Below are positions 10,799-33,299 of a stretch of DNA of 55,065 nucleotides, one piece after another. The stretch is from contig CAIXGR010000087.1 of assembly GCA_903919075.1 (NCBI GenBank), positions 1-55,065 of the forward strand, written 5' to 3'. Both the position numbers and the translations under genes were made by a program. Positions within the stretch are counted from its first letter, which is position 1; every line of letters starts with the position of its first letter. The notes below the pieces were generated by a model. It made no database searches. It saw only the letters and a list, made by a program, of their open reading frames with translations, and was not told where the DNA came from. The DNA is from an uncultured Bacteroidota bacterium. GTDB taxonomy: Bacteria > Bacteroidota > Bacteroidia > Chitinophagales > LD1.

Positions 10799-11362
10799 CT
10801 AAGACGTTACCGCCTCAGCAAATCCGGCGAGCGAATCACAACTATCATCCACCAATTTTTTCTGTTCGGCGGTAAGTTTATTAATATCACCGGCAAAAAT
10901 AGTTACCATGCCCATATTGCGCCCAAACTCCATATCGCTGGCCGAGTCACCCACTATAATTGATTTTGAAAAATCTATTTCCGGGAAATCTTTCTTAGCC
11001 TGTTTCGCCATACCAGTTGCTGGTTTACGCATTTGCCGTGCGTCTTTCTCTTTTAATTGGGTGGCTGAGTAAATGGCGTGTATTCTGCCGCCGTATTTTC
11101 GCACCTCTTTCAGCATTTCGTCGTGTATAAAACTTAAATCTTCCTCAGTCATCAACTCTTTTCCTACACCCTGTTGGTTGGTAACAATAATAATGCGCCT
11201 AAATTTTTTCGAAAGTGTTTTCATCGCATCCAACACGCCTTCTAAAAAATAAAACTCATCCCACTTTTTTACATAGTCGTTGGGGTAGTGAAGATTAATC
11301 ACCCCGTCGCGGTCTAAAAAAAGCGTCCAGCCTTTATCTATTTTCAAATCTTGCAAAGTCAT
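10799..11362 (-). CDS. HAD-IIIA phosphatase, GmhB/histidinol-phosphatase type
   Basis: This 187-residue HAD-superfamily phosphatase has DRDGVIN (nucleophile and acid/base Asp), VTNQQGVGK (motif II) with KPATGM, and VGDSASDMEF (motif IV). The family removes the 7-phosphate from heptose 1,7-bisphosphate. Unlike typical GmhB, the loop between motifs II and III has no cysteines (SATQLKEKDARQMRKP), so the usual zinc site is absent; the only Cys is near the C-terminus. The ATG at 11362 lies inside the preceding nucleotidyltransferase gene (overlap 29 bases), so the two are translationally linked. The pairing suggests a sugar-1,7-bisphosphate to sugar-nucleotide step for surface glycan synthesis. 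Confidence 0.85.
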   Translation of the reverse strand: MTLQDLKIDKGWTLFLDRDGVINLHYPNDYVKKWDEFYFLEGVLDAMKTLSKKFRRIIIVTNQQGVGKELMTEEDLSFIHDEMLKEVRKYGGRIHAIYSATQLKEKDARQMRKPATGMAKQAKKDFPEIDFSKSIIVGDSASDMEFGRNMGMVTIFAGDINKLTAEQKKLVDDSCDSLAGFAEAVTS

Positions 11363-12038
11363 GTTGCGCTTTTTGGTAATCTTCGGGTATGCCTATATCA
11401 ATAAAATATCCACCAAAAACTTTTCCGTAAAATTTTAAATGTTTCACCTGCTTTTCCAATACATCTTTCTCCAGCGAAAACTTTTCGCCCGTTTCTATTT
11501 TATCAAACACCTTTTTGTCGAAAAAATAAACTCCACCATTAATCAATCCCTGTTCTATATATTTCTTTTCAACAAAATTAGTTATCCGGTTATCATCATT
11601 TGTCTGCACTGTACCATACCTGTCAAAATGTTCAAGCTGTTTTAATGCTAGCGCCATATCGCATTTCGAACTGAGATAAAAGTTTTTTAACTCCTCTAAT
11701 TGGACATCAAAAAAAGTATCGCCATTCAACACAAAAGCAGTATCAGCTACTAATTTAAATGCCTTTTTAATACCACCTCCTGTGCCCAAAGGTTCATCTT
11801 CAACCGAATATTTAATTTTAATGCCCAAATATTCATCATTAAAAAAATCAACAATGGCTTCGTGCCGGTAGCCCGAAGAAATTATTACATTTTCAATTCC
11901 CTGCCCATTCAAATATTTAAAAACGTAATGAAGAAAGGGCTTGCCGTTAACCGGTGCCATTGGCTTGGGCAAATCTTTGACCACGCTTTGCAGCCTGGTG
12001 CCTAAGCCGCCTGCTAATATAATAACTGGTGTGTTCAC
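11334..12038 (-). CDS. Sugar-phosphate nucleotidyltransferase (HddC-like)
   Basis: This protein of about 234 residues is a nucleotidyltransferase. The signature LAGGLGTRLQ and LPKPMAPVNGKPFL lie at the N-terminus, ALNGDTFFDV-type metal-binding Asp (VLNGDTFFDV) near residue 108, and INGGVYFF further on. It should transfer a nucleotide to a sugar 1-phosphate; next to a GmhB-type phosphatase the best guess is D-glycero-alpha-D-manno-heptose 1-phosphate guanylyltransferase. TTG 12041 and GTG 12038 are adjacent possible starts; GTG is chosen. Neither has a Shine-Dalgarno sequence. A strong terminator for an upstream transcript lies only 28 bases away, so the gene needs its own promoter in that gap or reads through. 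Confidence 0.85.
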   Translation of the reverse strand: MNTPVIILAGGLGTRLQSVVKDLPKPMAPVNGKPFLHYVFKYLNGQGIENVIISSGYRHEAIVDFFNDEYLGIKIKYSVEDEPLGTGGGIKKAFKLVADTAFVLNGDTFFDVQLEELKNFYLSSKCDMALALKQLEHFDRYGTVQTNDDNRITNFVEKKYIEQGLINGGVYFFDKKVFDKIETGEKFSLEKDVLEKQVKHLKFYGKVFGGYFIDIGIPEDYQKAQHDFARFENR

Positions 12039-12065
12039 CAAACAAAGGTGTCAATTCGGGCGGAT

Positions 12066-12102
12066 AAAAAAAACGGCTGCAGGAAATTTCTTTCCGCAGC
12101 CG
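12066..12102 (-). terminator. Rho-independent terminator of the structured RNA
   Basis: On the minus strand, CGGCTGC-GGAAA-gaaa-TTTCC-t-GCAGCCG (12102 to 12074) is followed by eight T residues (12073-12066). The stem has 12 pairs with one bulge. The run of T lies only on the minus side, so it terminates minus-strand transcription coming from 12262. Confidence 0.9.
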
Positions 12103-12262
12103 GTAAAGCGTTTTTACTCTGGCGCTCAAGTTGTTTTTTAAACCAGAAGGGGTTCCCTTGCCTTCGTTTGGTTTTCACAAGCTCGATTCCCGGGTAGGGA
12201 AGCTCCGGCACTCCTCAGCTAAGGCCGTTTATTGCACACCGTCGTTGTAAAACGCCTTTAAA
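12066..12262 (-). ncRNA. Structured non-coding RNA, unidentified
   Basis: No convincing open frame occupies this region, but the minus strand folds by eye into a compact multi-branch RNA. An outer stem pairs AAAGgCGUUUUAC (about 12254-12242) with GUAAAAACGCUUU (12116-12104). Inside it GGUGUgCAA pairs with UUGaGCGCC. Three hairpins follow: CGGC...GCCG enclosing CCUUAGCUGAGG; AGCUUCCC/GGGAatcgAGCU; and AAACCaaacGAAGG/CCUUCuGGUUU. The RNA ends in an intrinsic terminator with eight U. The 5' end is approximate; no perfect TAnnTTTG is seen upstream. It lacks the landmarks of tmRNA, RNase P RNA, SRP RNA and the single long hairpin of 6S RNA. It could be a trans-acting sRNA or, less likely, an attenuator for the downstream nucleotidyltransferase. 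Confidence 0.55.
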
Positions 12263-12533
12263 AACTATATATCTTCAATCTACTTTAAACTTACTAAAGC
12301 CAATATAAATATAATATGTGAAACTATTTTTGAAAAATGATAATAATCAGAAAGACTCTTGATGTTTGTCAAATTATACAAATGCGCTTATACTAACTGC
12401 AAACCCGTTTTAACCTATACTATCATTAATTTCAATAAGTTACCCCGTTACCGTAGCCTTTTTATATGCTTAATTGTGCATTATTTATATTCGCTGAAGC
12501 TGCTTAAAACCTACAGCATTAAGATTGGGAGTT
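12263..12533. other. AT-rich intergenic stretch with no gene seen
   Basis: About 270 very AT-rich bases separate the structured RNA (minus) from the TMTC-like gene (plus). This should hold the divergent promoters for both, but no clear TAnnTTTG box stands out on either strand. The short plus-strand frame in this region has no coding character. Confidence 0.4.
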
Positions 12534-14405
12534 ATGAAAGAGAAAAAGAATCCAAACATCAAGGCCATTAAAAATATTGCGGCGCCTAAGTCTTTTAATA
12601 AAATACTACCGCTTGTTCTTATAATAGTTACAAGTATAGTTTACTATGCTTCACTTAACAATGAGTTTACCAATTGGGATGACCCTTCAAACGTTGCAGA
12701 TAATGCCAATGTGCAAGCCTTCCATGGTGATAGCGTGAATACAACTTTAACAAAAATTTTTTCCGTTAGTAATGATATGGTAATGTATGCGCCGCTTACC
12801 AATTTAAGTTTTTGCATTCAGTTTGCCGAATCTAAACTTAACCCGTGGCCGTATCATTTTTTCAATTTGTTCTTACACCTGCTTAATACTTTGCTGGTAT
12901 TTGGTTTTATCTGGCTTTTGACGAAACAGCAATGGGTGGCTTTTATTACCGGGTTGCTTTTCGCCATACACCCCATGCATGTTGAATCGGTAGCGTGGAT
13001 TACCGGACGCATAGATGTGCTTTATTCGGTTTTTTATCTTGGGGCGCTGTGCACTTATTTACTATTCATTAAACAAAAAAAACGCAAGTGGGCGTATTAT
13101 ACATTAACTTTTATCCTCTTCTTTTTAGCCGATATTACTAAGGCTGCTGCAGTAACATTACCGGTGGTTTTTTTAGCGCTTGATTATTTTTTGGGAAGAA
13201 AATTTGACAAGAAATTGATTTTAGAAAAGGCACCTTTTCTTCTACTCTCGCTTGTCTTTGGCTATCTTGCCATTTATGTTCAAAAGGGAATTCCATCAAT
13301 AGATAGCTTTGTACATTATAGTTTCTTCGACAAAATACTGTTCACCTGTTACGCGTTAATGATGTACCTATGGAAACTTGTAGCACCGGTAAGCTTATCG
13401 TGCTGCTACAACTACCCTTCTCCTCAATCAGGGGCTTCACTTCCGTATCCTGTTATTTTTTATATAGCCCCATTGGTAATTGCTGCTATTGGGTTTCTAA
13501 TTTATAAATCGAAGCAATACGGAAAAGATGTGGTTTTTGGATTTTCTTTCTTCTTAATCAATGTAGCGTTAATTCTACCGGGCCTGGCTTCAAGAAATAC
13601 TATTATTGCCGACCGGTATACTTATATTTCTTATATCGGCTTGTTTTTTATACTCGCCCGCTGGTTAAATAATTTATGGGAAAATAAAGCTGGCAGTTTT
13701 CAATATTTAAAAACATCGGTTATAGCTGCATTTACATTGCTCGTAATATTATGCAGCTATTTAACTGTTCAACGCTGCAGTGTATGGCACAATAGCATTA
13801 CACTTTGGACCGATGCTATTGAATTCAATCCCGCTTGCGTATTGGCTTACGACCATAGAGGGCGCGCCTATCAGGATAGTGCAAAAAATGAAGCCGCTAT
13901 CAAAGATTACAACACAGCAATTCTTCTATTTCCGGATGATGAGCAGGCACTTTTTGGCCGGGCATTGGCTTATTATAACACCGGTAAATATGATGATGCT
14001 GTAAAAGATTATACAGCAGTAATTAAGCTTAAACCAAAAGATGGCAACGCTTACAATAATCGTGGTAATGCATACGGCGCTAATAAAAAATACAAGGAAG
14101 CAATTGATGATTTCAATACTGCCATTAAACTTAAACCCGATTATGCCGATGCCTACAATAACCTTGGCAACGCACATTGCATGATGCAGGAATTTAATGA
14201 AGGGATAAAAGATTATAATGCAGCCATACGCCTTAACCCGAATTTTGCCGATGCTTATAAAGACAGGGCCCTTACTTATTTCAATATTCAAAAATACCAA
14301 CAGGCCTTAGATGATGCCACCAAAGCAAGGCAGCTAGGCTATAATATTGACCAAGGATTTATTGATATTATACAAGAGAATATTAGAAATAAGTCAAAAG
14401 ATTAG
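12534..14405 (+). CDS. TMTC-like GT-C membrane protein with C-terminal TPR repeats
   Basis: This 623-residue protein has a first membrane helix (residues about 22-40) followed by a loop with the acidic NWDDPSN motif. Some ten hydrophobic segments continue to about residue 425, and the rest is at least five tetratricopeptide repeats (about 440-610; e.g. AYNNLGNAHCMMQEFNEGIK). The motif HPMHVESVAWITGRIDVL resembles the HPVHxEAVAxxxGRAD signature of TMTC proteins, which are GT-C fold O-mannosyltransferases in animals. A role in transferring lipid-linked sugar to exported proteins is an inference. The frame opens at TTG 12525, but ATG 12534 is the natural start. It converges with kup. Confidence 0.85.
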   Translation: MKEKKNPNIKAIKNIAAPKSFNKILPLVLIIVTSIVYYASLNNEFTNWDDPSNVADNANVQAFHGDSVNTTLTKIFSVSNDMVMYAPLTNLSFCIQFAESKLNPWPYHFFNLFLHLLNTLLVFGFIWLLTKQQWVAFITGLLFAIHPMHVESVAWITGRIDVLYSVFYLGALCTYLLFIKQKKRKWAYYTLTFILFFLADITKAAAVTLPVVFLALDYFLGRKFDKKLILEKAPFLLLSLVFGYLAIYVQKGIPSIDSFVHYSFFDKILFTCYALMMYLWKLVAPVSLSCCYNYPSPQSGASLPYPVIFYIAPLVIAAIGFLIYKSKQYGKDVVFGFSFFLINVALILPGLASRNTIIADRYTYISYIGLFFILARWLNNLWENKAGSFQYLKTSVIAAFTLLVILCSYLTVQRCSVWHNSITLWTDAIEFNPACVLAYDHRGRAYQDSAKNEAAIKDYNTAILLFPDDEQALFGRALAYYNTGKYDDAVKDYTAVIKLKPKDGNAYNNRGNAYGANKKYKEAIDDFNTAIKLKPDYADAYNNLGNAHCMMQEFNEGIKDYNAAIRLNPNFADAYKDRALTYFNIQKYQQALDDATKARQLGYNIDQGFIDIIQENIRNKSKD

Positions 14406-14458: not shown

Positions 14459-16411
14459 CTAATTTATTCTTACCAAATGCGGGGTTTCAACTGCATGAAT
14501 GACCAAAGGATAGTTTTCAAGAATAACGTGACTTCTATCTAATCCAAAGTTCAACTCTTCACGCACACTTAACTTCTTGATCAGGAAATAAAGTTTCATA
14601 ACCATATTACTGAAAAAAGGTAATGAATTATCAAACGAAAGAAAACTGTTCATCAGTACAAACTTTACATCACCAATTTTACTATCCTGGTAGTTCACTT
14701 CGGGGCGTTTGGTAAGGCACACTTCATTGCTTTTCTCCAAATCGCTCAGGGCTGTTCTAAAATAATAATCAATTCTAGGTGCAATTCTAAATCCCATATT
14801 AAACGTAAGAAAGTAAACATTATCAGCTGCTATTGTTTGCATAGCATATTCCATGGTATAAGGTTCATCAGTTATGTTAACATGCAACAGCCAATATATA
14901 TCGGCACGCTTGGGCGTGCCTGACAAAATAGATTGAACAATTGTTTTTTCGATTTGGCCCGGCGTGTTAGATGTTGTAAGGTATACCAGGTTCGTGCAAT
15001 ATTTTTGTATGCGTCCATCTTCACTTAACTGAATCAGCCTGGGCACATAATCGTTTATATTCACTTTTTCAGTAATTCTTCCTTTTATTTTCTTCCCATA
15101 CCACCAAATCAACATTACCGATGACAAGCCCGTTCCTATAGCTATAGTAATCCACCCACCGGCGCGAAGCTTTTGCAGGTTTGCAATTAAAAAAGTTATT
15201 TCAACCGATAAAAATATTCCAGTAATAAGAAAAATAAAAACCAAAGGAACTCTCTTTGCATATAAATAAAAATTAATAAGAAAAGTTGTCATGAGCATGG
15301 TAAGGGTTACGCTTAAACCAAAGGCCGCTTCCATTTTAGTAGATTCTTTAAAATACAATACCATTCCCAAACATCCGGCCATCAGTAACCAGTTAATAGC
15401 CGGTATATATATTTGCCCTTTAATTTTTCCAGGGAAAGCTACCAAAAGCCTTGGCCATATTTCAAGTCTGATAGCTTCATTAATAAGGGTAAAACAGCCA
15501 CTAATAAGTGCCTGGCTTGCAATTATCGTTGCTATTGTAGATATAGCCAGTGCTGGCCAATAAACAGCTTTAGGTACAATAGCATAAAAAGGACTTATTG
15601 TAGTTAAACTTTCACCGGAGTGTTGTACCAGCCACGCGGTTTGCCCCGCATAGCTTAAAATAAGTGTTATTTTAATGTAAATCCAGCTAACACGAATATT
15701 GTTTTTCCCGCAGTGCCCCATGTCGCTATACAAAGCTTCGGCACCGGTAGTACATAAAAAAATGCTTCCTAAAAGCCAAAAACTTCCCGGTTCATCCGCG
15801 AACAAACGGTAGGCATAGTAAGGATTCAGTGCTTTTAATACAGAAAAATTACCTATAAGGGCCAACAGTCCAATTGCACCCATAAATGTGAACCACACCA
15901 ACATCACTGGTCCAAAAATTTTGCCAATCCGCTCAGTTCCGAATTGCTGAAAAACAAATAACAGAACCAAAATACCTATTACAATCGGCGTAATATTTAT
16001 ATCGGGCTTAACTGCATATAAACCCTCCATTGCTGAAGTAACGGAAATAGGCGGCGTAATAATACCATCTGCCATTAAAAACGCGCCGCCTGCAATGGCC
16101 GGTATCAATAGCCACTTGCCCCAGTATCTTCGTATAAGTGCGTAGAGTGAAAAAATGCCGCCTTCGCCATTGTTATCGGCTTGCAGTGTTATAATTATGT
16201 ATTTGATTGTGGTTTGTAAAGTTAAGGTCCAAAAAATACAGGAAAGCGTGCCAAGCGCAACAATCTCTGTAATTACCCGATTATGAAAAATCGCATTTTG
16301 AGTATATAGCGGCGAAGTACCTATATCGCCGAATACTATACCGGTGGCAACCAAAATGCCGGCAAGTGAAATTTTTTCATGAAAATTTTGCTGCGTGGAG
16401 CTATGTGTCAT
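14459..16411 (-). CDS. kup: KUP/HAK/KT family potassium transporter
   Basis: This protein of 650 residues (658 from the upstream ATG at 16435) imports potassium with protons across the inner membrane. The N-terminal family signature GIVFGDIGTSPLYT, the 'ADNNGEGGIFSLYALIRR' loop, about twelve membrane helices up to residue ~450 and a long cytoplasmic tail (about 450-650) are all present. ATG 16411 is preferred over 16435 because it follows a purine-rich AAAAGAAAAA stretch and leaves a normal short N-terminus; the choice is not certain. No regulatory partner is adjacent, and it converges with the TMTC-like gene. Confidence 0.95.
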   Translation of the reverse strand: MTHSSTQQNFHEKISLAGILVATGIVFGDIGTSPLYTQNAIFHNRVITEIVALGTLSCIFWTLTLQTTIKYIIITLQADNNGEGGIFSLYALIRRYWGKWLLIPAIAGGAFLMADGIITPPISVTSAMEGLYAVKPDINITPIVIGILVLLFVFQQFGTERIGKIFGPVMLVWFTFMGAIGLLALIGNFSVLKALNPYYAYRLFADEPGSFWLLGSIFLCTTGAEALYSDMGHCGKNNIRVSWIYIKITLILSYAGQTAWLVQHSGESLTTISPFYAIVPKAVYWPALAISTIATIIASQALISGCFTLINEAIRLEIWPRLLVAFPGKIKGQIYIPAINWLLMAGCLGMVLYFKESTKMEAAFGLSVTLTMLMTTFLINFYLYAKRVPLVFIFLITGIFLSVEITFLIANLQKLRAGGWITIAIGTGLSSVMLIWWYGKKIKGRITEKVNINDYVPRLIQLSEDGRIQKYCTNLVYLTTSNTPGQIEKTIVQSILSGTPKRADIYWLLHVNITDEPYTMEYAMQTIAADNVYFLTFNMGFRIAPRIDYYFRTALSDLEKSNEVCLTKRPEVNYQDSKIGDVKFVLMNSFLSFDNSLPFFSNMVMKLYFLIKKLSVREELNFGLDRSHVILENYPLVIHAVETPHLVRIN

Positions 16412-16542
16412 TTTTTCTTTTAGGTAATAATGCAATTAGAATTATCATTTATACAATAGTAAGTAAATGAAATTGAATCTTAGACGACTTAAAAAACCTA
16501 AAACAGCATTCTCCGATATTTAACAATTTATAAAATAGTAAT

Positions 16543-16573
16543 AAAAAAGCCCTTCATTACTAAAGGGCTTTTT
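16543..16573 (-). terminator. Terminator downstream of nrdJ
   Basis: The hairpin AAGCCCTT-loop-AAGGGCTT is flanked by A6 on the left and T5 on the right, so it can act in both directions. On the minus strand it follows nrdJ by about 80 bases and precedes kup, so ending the nrdJ transcript is its likely job. Confidence 0.75.
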
Positions 16574-16653
16574 GTTAGTTGCAGAATACAAGCCTAGGTT
16601 GAAAACCATTTAGGCAAGTACCTGCGTATTTTTACGCATGTTCTGTTTGCGAA

Positions 16654-19600
16654 CTATGAACAGCCCATGCTATTACCGCAATTCATACATTTATAGCAAG
16701 TACCGCTACGAAGAGTGATGTTGCCGCACACACTGCAAGGTGGGGCATCGCCCATCATTTCGCCGGCAAGTTTATTGAAGCTTTGCATCGAGCTTTCTGC
16801 CATTGTAATTTTTCTTGCCTCCGGTTTCTTTACCTCGCTTTCAACTTTTATAGTTTTTTGCGCATCTCTCATTTCAGGATGCGGTTGAGGCCTTTTCTCA
16901 ACAAATGGGTCGTCAGCAATATCAGTAGTTAAATCGCTGGTTGGTTGCGAGCGCATAGCAAGTTCAGATGGTGTAACATGCACCAAGTCTGTACGGTTCA
17001 AATATTCTAACGCTACAAGTCTGAAGATATAATCCACCACCGAAGATGCGTTTTTGATATTCGGATGCTCCACCATTCCACTTGGCTCAAAGCGGGTGAA
17101 GGTGAATTTATTTACAAACTCTTCCAACGGCACGCCGTATTGCAGCCCTATAGAAACTGATATGGCAAAACAGTTCATCAACGAACGGAATGATGCACCT
17201 TCTTTGTGCATATCCACAAAAATTTCTCCCAATGTTCCGTCATCATACTCACCGGTGCGCACAAATACTGTTTGCCCACCAATTTTTGCCTTTTGAGTAA
17301 AGCCTCTGCGCTTATTTGGCAATTTCTTACGCTCAACAATTTGCGAAAGCTCGCGCATAAAATGAGTATCAGTTGACTCCTGCATTAAAATGCGGGCAGC
17401 CTCCAAAACTTGTTCTGGAGTAAGCTTGCTGAATACTTCACCGGGTTGTTTTTGTTCGGCTGTGCTTGTTGTTGCAGCTTCTTTTTTCTCTTCTTTCTCT
17501 TCGTCCTTTTTGTTCGAAAGCGGCTGAGAAAGTTTGCATCCATCGCGATAAAGCGCATTCGCTTTTAATCCCAATCTCCATGAAAGGGCATAGCAGCTTT
17601 GAATATCTTCCATAGTTGCCTCGTTAGGCAAATTGATGGTTTTAGAAATTGCTCCGCTAATAAAAGGCTGAACAGCCGCCATCATACGAATGTGTCCGTA
17701 AGGATGAATATAACGCTGGCCTTTAGTGCCACATTTATTCGCGCAATCAAATACCGGTAAATGTTCTTCTTTTAAATAAGGTGCACCTTCAACAGTCATA
17801 GTTCCGCAAACGTATTCGTTAGCGGCATCCATTTCTTCTTTATTAAAGCCTAACTCGCGTAGTAAGTTGAAGTTTGGCGCTTTGTATTGTTCGGCATTAA
17901 AACCAAGCCGCACCAATGTTTCTTCGCCAAGCGTAAATACATTAAACACAAAAGTAATATCAAAAGCCGATGGAAGTTGTGCTTCTATCTTTTCAATATC
18001 ACCAGCAGTGAAACCACGTGCGCGTAATGAATCTGCGTTGATATGCGGACAGCCGTTTAACGAAGCATTTCCCTGTGCATATTTTATAATAGCACTAATT
18101 TGTCCTTTTGTATAGCCCAAAGTTTCAAGCGCCATTGGCACACACTCGTTTACAATTTTAAAGTATCCACCACCCGAAAGTTTTTTGAATTTAACCAAAG
18201 CAAAGTCTGGCTCAACACCGGTAGTGTCGCAATCCATTAACAAGCCGATAGTACCGGTAGGTGCTATAACTGTAGCTTGTGCATTACGGTAGCCGTGTTT
18301 TTCGCCAAGTTGCAAAGCTTCATCCCATGCACCGGTAGCGGCTTTAAGTAAATAATCAGGGCAATATTTAGGATCAATGCCGCAAGGTTTTATTTCGATG
18401 CCTTCATAAGCGGTTTGATCTGCGTTATATGCTGCCAAACGGTGATTACGCATTACACGCAACATGTGTTTTTTGTTTCTTTCATAAGCAGGGAAGGCAC
18501 CAAGCGCCGCGGCCATTTCAGCCGATGCTTTATATGAAGTACCGGTCATGATAGCTGTAATGGCACCGCCAATAGCACGTGCTTTATCGCTGTCATAAGG
18601 TATACCCGATACCATTAATACCGAACCTAAGTTAGCATAACCAAGCCCAAGTGTTCTGAAGTCATACGAAAGCTGCGCTACTTCTTTAGCTGGGAACTGC
18701 GCCATCAATACAGATATTTCAAGCACCACAGTCCAAATGCGGCTCATGTGCTCAAAACCGTTTACATCAAACTCCAGCGTTTTATCATTAAAGAATTTTC
18801 TAAGGTTGAACGAAGCCAAGTTACATGCCGTGTTATCCAAGAACATATACTCGCTACAAGGATTTGAAGCGCGGATAGGCCCATCTTCAGGACAGGTATG
18901 CCATTCGTTAATAGTCGTATCAAACTGAACACCCGGATCGGCACAACGCCATGCGGCCTCAGCAATTTTATCCCACAACTCGCGCGATGGAATAGTTTTC
19001 ATTACACGTTTATCCAATCTTGCTAAAAGGTTCCAGCCATCACCTTTTTCCAAAGCATGGAAAAATGTGTTAGGAACACGAACTGAGTTATTAGAATTTT
19101 GCCCTGCAATAGTTCTATACGCTTCACCTTCATAGTGAGAATCGTAACCGGCATTAATCAACGCTGCGGCTTTATTCTCCTCCTTCATCTTCCACTCAAT
19201 AAAATCAACTATCTCAGGATGGTCAAGATCCAAACAAACCATCTTAGCTGCTCTTCTTGTAGTTCCGCCAGATTTAATGGCACCTGCTGCTGCATCGCCA
19301 ATTTTCAAAAAGCTCATTAAGCCTGATGAAGTTCCTCCGCCCGAAAGTCTTTCACTTTCACCACGTATGTTTGAGAAGTTAGTTCCTACACCTGAACCAT
19401 ATTTAAAAATTCTTGCTTCGCGCACCCACAAATCCATAATACCACCACCGTTTACTAAATCATCATCTACTGATAGAATGAAACAAGCGTGTGGCTGTGG
19501 CCTTTCGTAAGCAGAAGTTGATTTTTCTAATTGATTGGTTGAAGGATTTACGAAATAATGGCCCTGCGGCTTGCCTTTAATACCATAAGATGAATAAAGG

Positions 19601-31926: not shown

Positions 31927-32370
31927 TCACTTCCCTCTCTTTTGTTTAAAAAACTCGGTCACTAAACTTCCGCATTCGCCTTCCAAAATGCCCGAAATTA
32001 CCTCGGTTTTAGGATGCAGCACTTTGCCTTTGGTTAAACTATAGCCTGCCTTCGGGTCGCTTGCACCGTAAATTAAGCGGGCAATACGCGCCCATTTTAA
32101 GGCGGCAGCACACATCAGACAGGGCTCAAGTGTTACATACAAAGTGCAGTCCTCTAAAAATTTACTGCCCAAATAATTCGAGGCAGCTGTTATAGCAATC
32201 ATTTCAGCATGGGCGGTAACGTCTTTAAGCCGTTCGGTTTGATTATAGCCTTTGCCTATAATGCGGTTGTTGCAAATAACCAATGCACCTACCGGCACCT
32301 CATCTTCCTCAAATGCATAAAAAGCTTCCTTCAAAGCCATCTTCATATAATATTCATGCGAAAAAATCAT
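31927..32370 (-). CDS. tadA: Nucleoside deaminase, TadA type
   Basis: This 147-residue zinc deaminase most likely converts the wobble adenosine of tRNA-Arg to inosine. The zinc and catalytic motifs are HAEMIAI (HAE, about residue 52) and EPCLMCAAALKWARI (PCxxC), and TFFKQKR-like basic residues end the chain (VTEFFKQKRGK). ATG 32370 is preferred to the in-frame ATG 32382 because it overlaps the upstream stop as ATGA, the usual coupled arrangement. A guanine deaminase or similar is the alternative; TadA is favoured by length and the conserved N-terminal MKMALKEA helix. Confidence 0.88.
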   Translation of the reverse strand: MIFSHEYYMKMALKEAFYAFEEDEVPVGALVICNNRIIGKGYNQTERLKDVTAHAEMIAITAASNYLGSKFLEDCTLYVTLEPCLMCAAALKWARIARLIYGASDPKAGYSLTKGKVLHPKTEVISGILEGECGSLVTEFFKQKRGK

Positions 32371-33299
32371 ACCGACACCCATTTGCGTTTAAAAATAAAT
32401 AAATAACCGGCTATTGCTGGCACAACTAAATTAAGCAGCCATACCATTGTTACTGCACTTAATACTGCCAGGTTATCGGCGGTATAATTTTTAAATACAT
32501 ATAACGCACTGCCGTTTCTAAAACTAATATCAAGCAAAGGCATTAGAGGCGAATATGTTTGCACTAAAAGAAAGACGATGCTATGAACAGTTAATTGTAA
32601 AATTTCATTTCCCGCACCAAAAAATAATAACAGCAAAACATATTGCGATGAATAAACAAAAAACCGAAGGAACGAAAGTAGCAACCCTTTTACCTGCACA
32701 TCCATATCCGGTAAGTGAGCATGCCCAATAGTAAGTCCATATTTTTGAAGAAGAGGAATGGATGCGATAAACTTATTCAATAAATCGAATCTGAAATATA
32801 TAAGTAAATAAATGGCCGCCGCCCCAGCGGTGATCTCGGTAAGGAATTGGCTGCCACTCCACAAATACACAAAAGGCACACCGGTAACCAGTGATGTAGC
32901 GGTTTGCGCAAATCCACCAATGCTGCTTATATAAAATGCTTTGGTTTTATTGTCGTCTTCTAAAAATAATACGCGGCCCATAAACTCGCCGCTTCGGCCA
33001 GGTGTTACAAAACCTACACTAATACCCGCCACTACTGATTTAAATAAATTGGTAAATGAAGTTTTAGTGCTAAGCAGAATTTTCCATTTCAGCGTTTCAA
33101 CCATCCAGTTAACCGGCATTAATAAAACTGCAATAATTAAAAAGTAAAACCGGCCTGCCTGCAGGTTTTCAATAAAAAAATGGAATTGCGAATGGAAATC
33201 GTTTTTTATAAATAAGCGGTCTATCACAAACCAACTCATTAATAAAAACAAAACTATGTTGAGTGCAAAAAAAAGTTTCCGGTTGTTTAAAAAATTCAC
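32367..33299 (-). CDS. YbhN/lysylphosphatidylglycerol synthase TM-domain protein
   Basis: This 310-residue membrane protein has about eight hydrophobic helices and the UPF0104/LPG_synthase_TM family motif 'GFVTPGRSGEFMGRV' (about residue 95-110) with a preceding NWMVETLKWKILL. It lacks any soluble synthase domain, so it is the flippase-like or transporter-like part only; a role in moving a lipid across the inner membrane is inferred. It starts with GTG at 33299 (MNFLNNRK), and its stop overlaps tadA by four bases. A gene of this family near panC and glgA-like genes is frequent in Bacteroidota, though here it lies 7 kb away. Confidence 0.87.
   Translation of the reverse strand: MNFLNNRKLFFALNIVLFLLMSWFVIDRLFIKNDFHSQFHFFIENLQAGRFYFLIIAVLLMPVNWMVETLKWKILLSTKTSFTNLFKSVVAGISVGFVTPGRSGEFMGRVLFLEDDNKTKAFYISSIGGFAQTATSLVTGVPFVYLWSGSQFLTEITAGAAAIYLLIYFRFDLLNKFIASIPLLQKYGLTIGHAHLPDMDVQVKGLLLSFLRFFVYSSQYVLLLLFFGAGNEILQLTVHSIVFLLVQTYSPLMPLLDISFRNGSALYVFKNYTADNLAVLSAVTMVWLLNLVVPAIAGYLFIFKRKWVSV

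Follow-up and report, generated by a model that had tools for sequence, protein, structure and literature searches.

The minus strand of a contig from an uncultured Bacteroidota bacterium carries, between genes for a sugar nucleotidyltransferase and a TMTC-like protein, a stretch that an earlier note had read by eye as an abundant, possibly undescribed small RNA of trans-acting or housekeeping type. This raises the question whether positions 12066-12262 of the 55,065 nucleotides analysed here (the window) hold an RNA gene at all, and whether such an RNA would be a widespread one. The fold computed for this stretch has the following parts:

12066..12258, minus strand: candidate small RNA of about 190-193 nt, marked by its fold, its G+C content and the lack of an Rfam family
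12105..12258, minus strand: outer stem P1, 10 bp, 12258-12249 with 12114-12105 (pair probabilities 0.78-1.0)
12245-12244 with 12117-12116, minus strand: inner pairs (with P2, pair probabilities 0.74-0.92)
12121..12240, minus strand: inner stem P2, 12240-12236 with 12125-12121 (pair probabilities 0.82-0.92)
12206..12227, minus strand: hairpin 1 (pair probabilities 0.76-0.95)
12187..12201, minus strand: hairpin 2 (pair probabilities 0.53-0.99)
12126..12186, minus strand: hairpin 3, a long arm with internal loops (pair probabilities 0.54-0.98, two apical pairs 0.4)
12066..12102, minus strand: intrinsic terminator with a 12-bp stem, one bulged U, a 4-nt loop and T8 (pair probabilities 0.88-1.0)

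Every part that had been described by eye, the outer stem, the inner stems, the three hairpins and the terminator with its eight U, is present in the computed fold. Pair probabilities are moderate at the base of hairpin 3 (0.54-0.71) and high in its middle, in P1, in hairpin 1 and in the terminator. An intrinsic terminator at the 3' end, a trait of the sRNA type, is present at 12102-12066. Its stem at 12102-12074 had been called perfect-looking, and it does consist of twelve pairs followed by T8 at 12073-12066, but one bulged U makes it nearly perfect. Among 277 hairpin-plus-T candidates on both strands of the window it ranks first with -18.7 kcal/mol, by a small margin over the next at -18.3.

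As a whole, 12066-12262 has a folding energy of -65.7 kcal/mol, where shuffled sequences average -52.3 (z -3.04), and one of 200 shuffles was equally stable. Much of this signal comes from the terminator. With the terminator removed, the stability of the 155-nt body alone is only modest, with z -1.9 in 300 shuffles and z -1.6 in a second run, where 130 of 2000 shuffles were equally stable. Among 32 comparison windows of 155 nt from other intergenic DNA, taken on both strands and overlapping in part, at least six reached z -2.1 or lower; note that four of these six stem from one gap, 16436-16653, that contains a strong hairpin. A closing stem of at least 12 end-to-end pairs, that is P1 and the next two, arose in 2/2000 shuffles, both of them less stable than the native body. 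The body beats its shuffles on the minus strand only, the plus-strand body giving z -0.09, and the stretch forms a G+C island of 0.48-0.49 versus 0.28 in the 258 nt upstream (12263-12520). The folding goes beyond chance in part, and it is the closing stem, the terminator, the strand asymmetry and the G+C island that stand out.

A single-sequence pairing test gave no sign of an antiterminator, as 58% and 52% of 200 shuffled bodies matched the two terminator arms equally well, and in stepwise folding the 5' arm stays free for terminator formation. Since the arms pair no better with the body than with shuffled bodies and the 5' arm is free, termination looks unconditional, a point in favour of a stand-alone sRNA rather than a switch. 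The nearest upstream minus-strand gene, which is kup-like, ends at 14459, 2.2 kb off and beyond the plus-strand TMTC-like gene, so that a terminator at this place is most simply explained by a local transcript. Two short elements upstream of the fold might form a promoter:

12286..12289, minus strand: possible -33 element TTTA (3/4 to TTTG), 18-nt spacer, a weak match
12260..12267, minus strand: possible -7 element TAGTTTTT (5/6 to TAnnTTTG), a weak match

If the -7 box spans -12 to -5, the position used for this estimate as in PMC9723704, a transcription start is predicted at about 12255, which is where P1 has its foot. As such -33/-7 pairs are common, with a background of 2.7 per strand-kb in the window, the match is only a suggestion of a promoter.

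The Rfam search that the earlier note had proposed, 6S-Flavo included, left the locus without a family. The whole window yielded no match at gathering score, and with E up to 10 the surroundings of the locus (11700-12700) returned six weak matches, the sole one inside the stretch being IsrM, whose 10.7 bits fall short of the cut-off (376). The impression that landmarks of tmRNA, RNase P RNA and SRP RNA are missing is borne out, as none of these families was matched near the locus with E up to 10. ARAGORN found neither a tRNA nor a tmRNA, which led us to reject the idea that the 5' half is tRNA-like. The view that the RNA is not of the 6S type agrees with the minimum-energy fold, which is multi-branched, and with RF00013 and RF01685 being unmatched with E up to 10 in 11700-12700. 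Neither of the two 6S models reaches its cut-off in this genome. As a side observation, RF00013 stayed below cut-off in all 30 genomes searched, own included, and the 6S RNA of the clade is unlocated. Elsewhere in the window, a second structured spot was seen at 16412-16660 on the minus strand, between a ribonucleotide reductase gene and the kup-like gene. It folds with z -4.6 in a 155-nt window at 16476 and with z -3.2 over 249 nt, it holds a terminator-like 13-bp hairpin with a T tract, and it has no Rfam match at gathering score.

Related genomes were searched with blastn and with a covariance model, R1, built from this single sequence, in family, order and class sets that overlap. Neither the 29 family relatives nor 395 other genomes of the order or 394 others of the class yielded a credible homologue. 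A conserved housekeeping RNA would be expected to be detectable in the three closest genomes (G013, G011 and G006), whose aminotransferase is 82-84% and whose K+ transporter is 76-79% identical, yet no credible relative was obtained there with either blastn or R1. The proposal of a housekeeping-type RNA of Bacteroidota is therefore unsupported by the three closest genomes, the family, the order and the class. Note that a far-diverged relative could be missed, since a single-sequence model and the initial filters limit sensitivity.

With blastn, the only non-self match of the 197 nt in 99 genomes (own included) was one of 27 nt, located within a 565-aa open frame. In 395 class genomes (own included) five other matches appeared with E 3.8e-4 to 0.008, all of them set aside: four lie in open frames and the fifth, L245, has its alignment limited to the terminator plus the foot of P1. 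Searched with an E limit of 10, the 155-nt body gave short matches in every one of 30 family genomes (own included), as expected at this threshold, with a best non-self E of 0.043 among the matches listed. All 29 other loci listed by this search were scanned with R1, unfiltered; of the nine checked for open frames (L102-L110), eight lie wholly within one and L107 does so for 39 of its 41 nt.

R1 itself, run on the 30 family genomes (own included) at E up to 1, recovered the candidate and four weak matches. The best, in G021 (E 7.4e-5, 59 nt), covers the terminator and the foot of P1 while skipping 138 model positions, and was rejected. The others are found in G006 (E 0.013, 54 nt) and G018 (E 0.55, 46 nt), both free of open-frame overlap, and in G008 (E 0.67, 115 nt, 47 of them in an open frame). 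An opposite-strand match in G021 (24.7 bits, E 3.9e-5 in 89 kb) covers a large part of the model, gaps and mispairs included, and 80 of its 150 nt fall in an open frame; we judge it to be probably chance. Among 396 order genomes (own included), at E up to 0.001 and with stricter filters, R1 found only the candidate. On neighbour loci from the three closest relatives the unfiltered model gave 42 matches with E up to 10, five of which were inspected as alignments. The best (E 0.0014) was discarded as terminator-like; the fifth (E 0.33) also spans the outer stems but was discarded because it lies inside a 626-aa open frame. No full-length match was obtained upstream of hddC or gmhA in G013 and G011, and on the window itself unfiltered R1 returned the candidate followed by 13 matches at E 0.0085 or worse. 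Most of the weak matches inspected lie in open frames or are confined to the terminator hairpin.

Searches were also made beyond these relatives. An exact 28-mer was not found in viral contigs, a plasmid search gave no match, and a phage search gave one of 24 nt (E 0.7). A degenerate 17-mer scan of an 84,980-species collection, which is restricted to genomes that retain the 17-mer and possibly excludes own-genome records, returned 110 stretches. On these, R1 with default filters produced one match at E 0.37 in a set of 80, while the remaining 30 gave nothing up to E 1, and no credible homologue emerged among the 110. One stretch, L207, stood out with z 4.6 from 20 shuffles in an alignment test of 80 of the 110, and was dismissed because R1 does not match it. 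A further short blastn match, L232, is situated in a 421-aa open frame.

The position of the stretch is best understood from the genes downstream of it, whose names are NCBIfam best matches below strict cut-offs:

11337..12038, minus strand: hddC-like D-glycero-D-manno-heptose 1-phosphate guanylyltransferase (NCBIfam NF049965, 282.6 bits, cut-off 300; Pfam PF00483)
10799..11362, minus strand: gmhB-like heptose bisphosphate phosphatase, next after hddC (NF006506, 124.2 bits, cut-off 178; TIGR01656 above cut-off)

The GTG start of hddC follows the T tract by 27 nt on the same strand as the RNA. The closest relatives have genes for a short-chain dehydrogenase, a DUF1573 protein and an aminotransferase, then gmhB, hddC, gmhA and an hddA-like kinase gene, in this order. 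G013 has an additional frame between its aminotransferase gene and gmhB, G011 has two between gmhA and the kinase gene, and the G006 sequence ends within this series of genes. Of 28 other loci tested, 26 have gmhA directly upstream of hddC, the spacer being longer in G007 and G027; in G008 and G009 gmhA is absent from that place. In the genome studied here the hddA-like gene and gmhA stand together on contig C47 (L247, 4581-6197), and gmhB-hddC remain in the window (10799-12041). The cluster is broken directly upstream of hddC, and the candidate RNA sits in the break. On its other side, the protein that had been called TMTC-like shows only TPR repeats in Pfam, and tblastn of this protein against the collected loci of relatives returned nothing with E up to 1e-20.

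Our preferred reading, to which we give about an even chance, is an independently terminated sRNA gene that is restricted to this species or to a narrow lineage, approximately 190 nt long, with a start near 12255 and a stop at 12066. Such an sRNA is most likely an ordinary orphan and not a new widespread RNA. What the analysis shows directly is a potential to fold, a terminator, a G+C island and no detected relative; the promoter, the transcript and the action in trans are inferred. Transcription would start near 12255 on the minus strand, the ends of the transcript would meet in the closing stem P1, and transcription would stop at the strong intrinsic terminator at 12066. Judged by its kind, the RNA would most likely base-pair in trans like other intergenic bacterial sRNAs, through exposed stretches, for example the GCAAUAAA junction or the loops of the hairpins. 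Predicted pairing of the body with 48 gene starts of the window (60 shuffles each) gave a lowest z of -3.75 at 32367-33299, followed by -3.1 and -2.7; with so many tests, so few shuffles each and no conservation, this was set aside as evidence for targets. An orphan sRNA would be normal, since 27 of the 49 high-confidence intergenic sRNAs with a start and a terminator described for Bacteroides thetaiotaomicron are strain-specific (PMC7366714). Against an sRNA speak the lack of a detected homologue, the modest z of the body, a promoter match that is weak and of a common kind, and a terminator position that would suit a leader equally well.

The main rival, possible although somewhat unlikely, is accordingly a cis-acting 5' leader of hddC-gmhB that shares the promoter of these genes and whose terminator would set transcription into hddC by attenuation or as a metabolite switch. 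It stays in play because only 27 nt separate the terminator from the GTG of hddC, which shares its strand, and because hddC is here separated from gmhA. With gmhA and the hddA-like gene on C47, hddC needs a promoter at this place, there is little room for one past the terminator, and, being cut off from gmhA and the DNA upstream of it, hddC may now have the promoter of the RNA as its main one. Against a leader, the single-sequence pairing test showed no antiterminator signal, the arms pairing no better with the body than with shuffled bodies and stepwise folding leaving the 5' arm free. R1 moreover lacks a full-length match upstream of hddC or gmhA in G013 and G011, and the arrangement is not conserved upstream of hddC, the coding sequence of gmhA occupying that place in all but two of the 28 other loci. 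Bacteroidota cis-leaders such as Bacteroid-trp are, like the candidate, structured elements upstream of a same-strand gene. Bacteroid-trp is RF01692, tabulated in PMC2864571; compared with leaders of this sort, the candidate has no Rfam match, no antiterminator signal and no counterpart upstream of hddC in the closest relatives. A combination of both functions, in which a new sRNA born at the breakpoint of the heptose cluster, recently and from a new 5' UTR, would also act as a leader metering hddC-gmhB by read-through, appears quite improbable to us. The stretch had also been described as gene-free, which needs qualification: five small frames overlap it, among them a 58-aa GTG frame at 12211-12035 on the minus strand, and the four searched in Pfam, all but one of 39 aa, have no match. 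If translated, the 58-aa frame might be a leader peptide coupled to hddC, as its stop overlaps the GTG of hddC (GTGA). This we regard as highly improbable, because a frame of such length occurs in 218 of 2000 shuffles and is within chance, because it has neither a Pfam nor a plasmid match, because the collected loci of relatives gave three weak matches of 31 aa each (best E 0.017), and because the terminator falls inside the frame.

The stretch might also encode no functional RNA and be a G+C-rich spacer with a strong terminator at a rearrangement breakpoint, its other helices being chance or remnants. The modest z of the body (-1.6 to -1.9), the lack of a credible homologue in the family, order and class searches and the breakpoint position are in line with this, but the rarity of the closing stem among shuffles, the first rank of the terminator, the strand asymmetry and a minus-strand terminator for which a local transcript is the simplest cause make it improbable. 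The last alternative is a strongly diverged 6S RNA that the Rfam 6S models miss in this clade. 6S RNA has the shape of one long hairpin with a central bubble. Like the candidate, 6S-Flavo RNA (RF01685) and 6S RNA (RF00013) are stand-alone non-coding RNAs, the latter of a similar length with 187 model positions, and with neither model passing its cut-off the 6S gene of this genome is unlocated. The two differ from the candidate in that neither model matches the locus with E up to 10 and in that the body of the candidate is branched; a 6S RNA should furthermore persist across the genus, yet no relative of the candidate was found there, and we consider this explanation scarcely credible.

The preferred reading, an orphan sRNA, finds its closest parallels in two described groups. 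The GibS-type intergenic sRNAs of B. thetaiotaomicron share the intergenic location, the 100-200 nt class and the intrinsic terminator, and many of them are strain-specific; GibS itself differs in that it is 145 nt long, conserved in Bacteroides and shown by experiment (PMC7366714), whereas the candidate is known from sequence and has no detected relative. The comparison with Bacteroides sRNA sequences was made via Rfam only, which includes at least BTnc231. In Flavobacterium psychrophilum, the Rfp series comprises non-coding independent transcripts with a median of 176 bp; 45 independent transcripts are non-antisense, and 18 of these are strongly folded (PMC9723704). Rfp transcripts differ from the candidate in having been seen by RNA-seq, and many of them may have homologues in the genus (PMC9723704). 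The candidate opens no new RNA class, and the idea of a conserved housekeeping RNA is left without support. If transcribed, it would add one more orphan sRNA for a group of bacteria in which few have been studied, and its position in the cluster break could show the birth of an sRNA beside a displaced gene.
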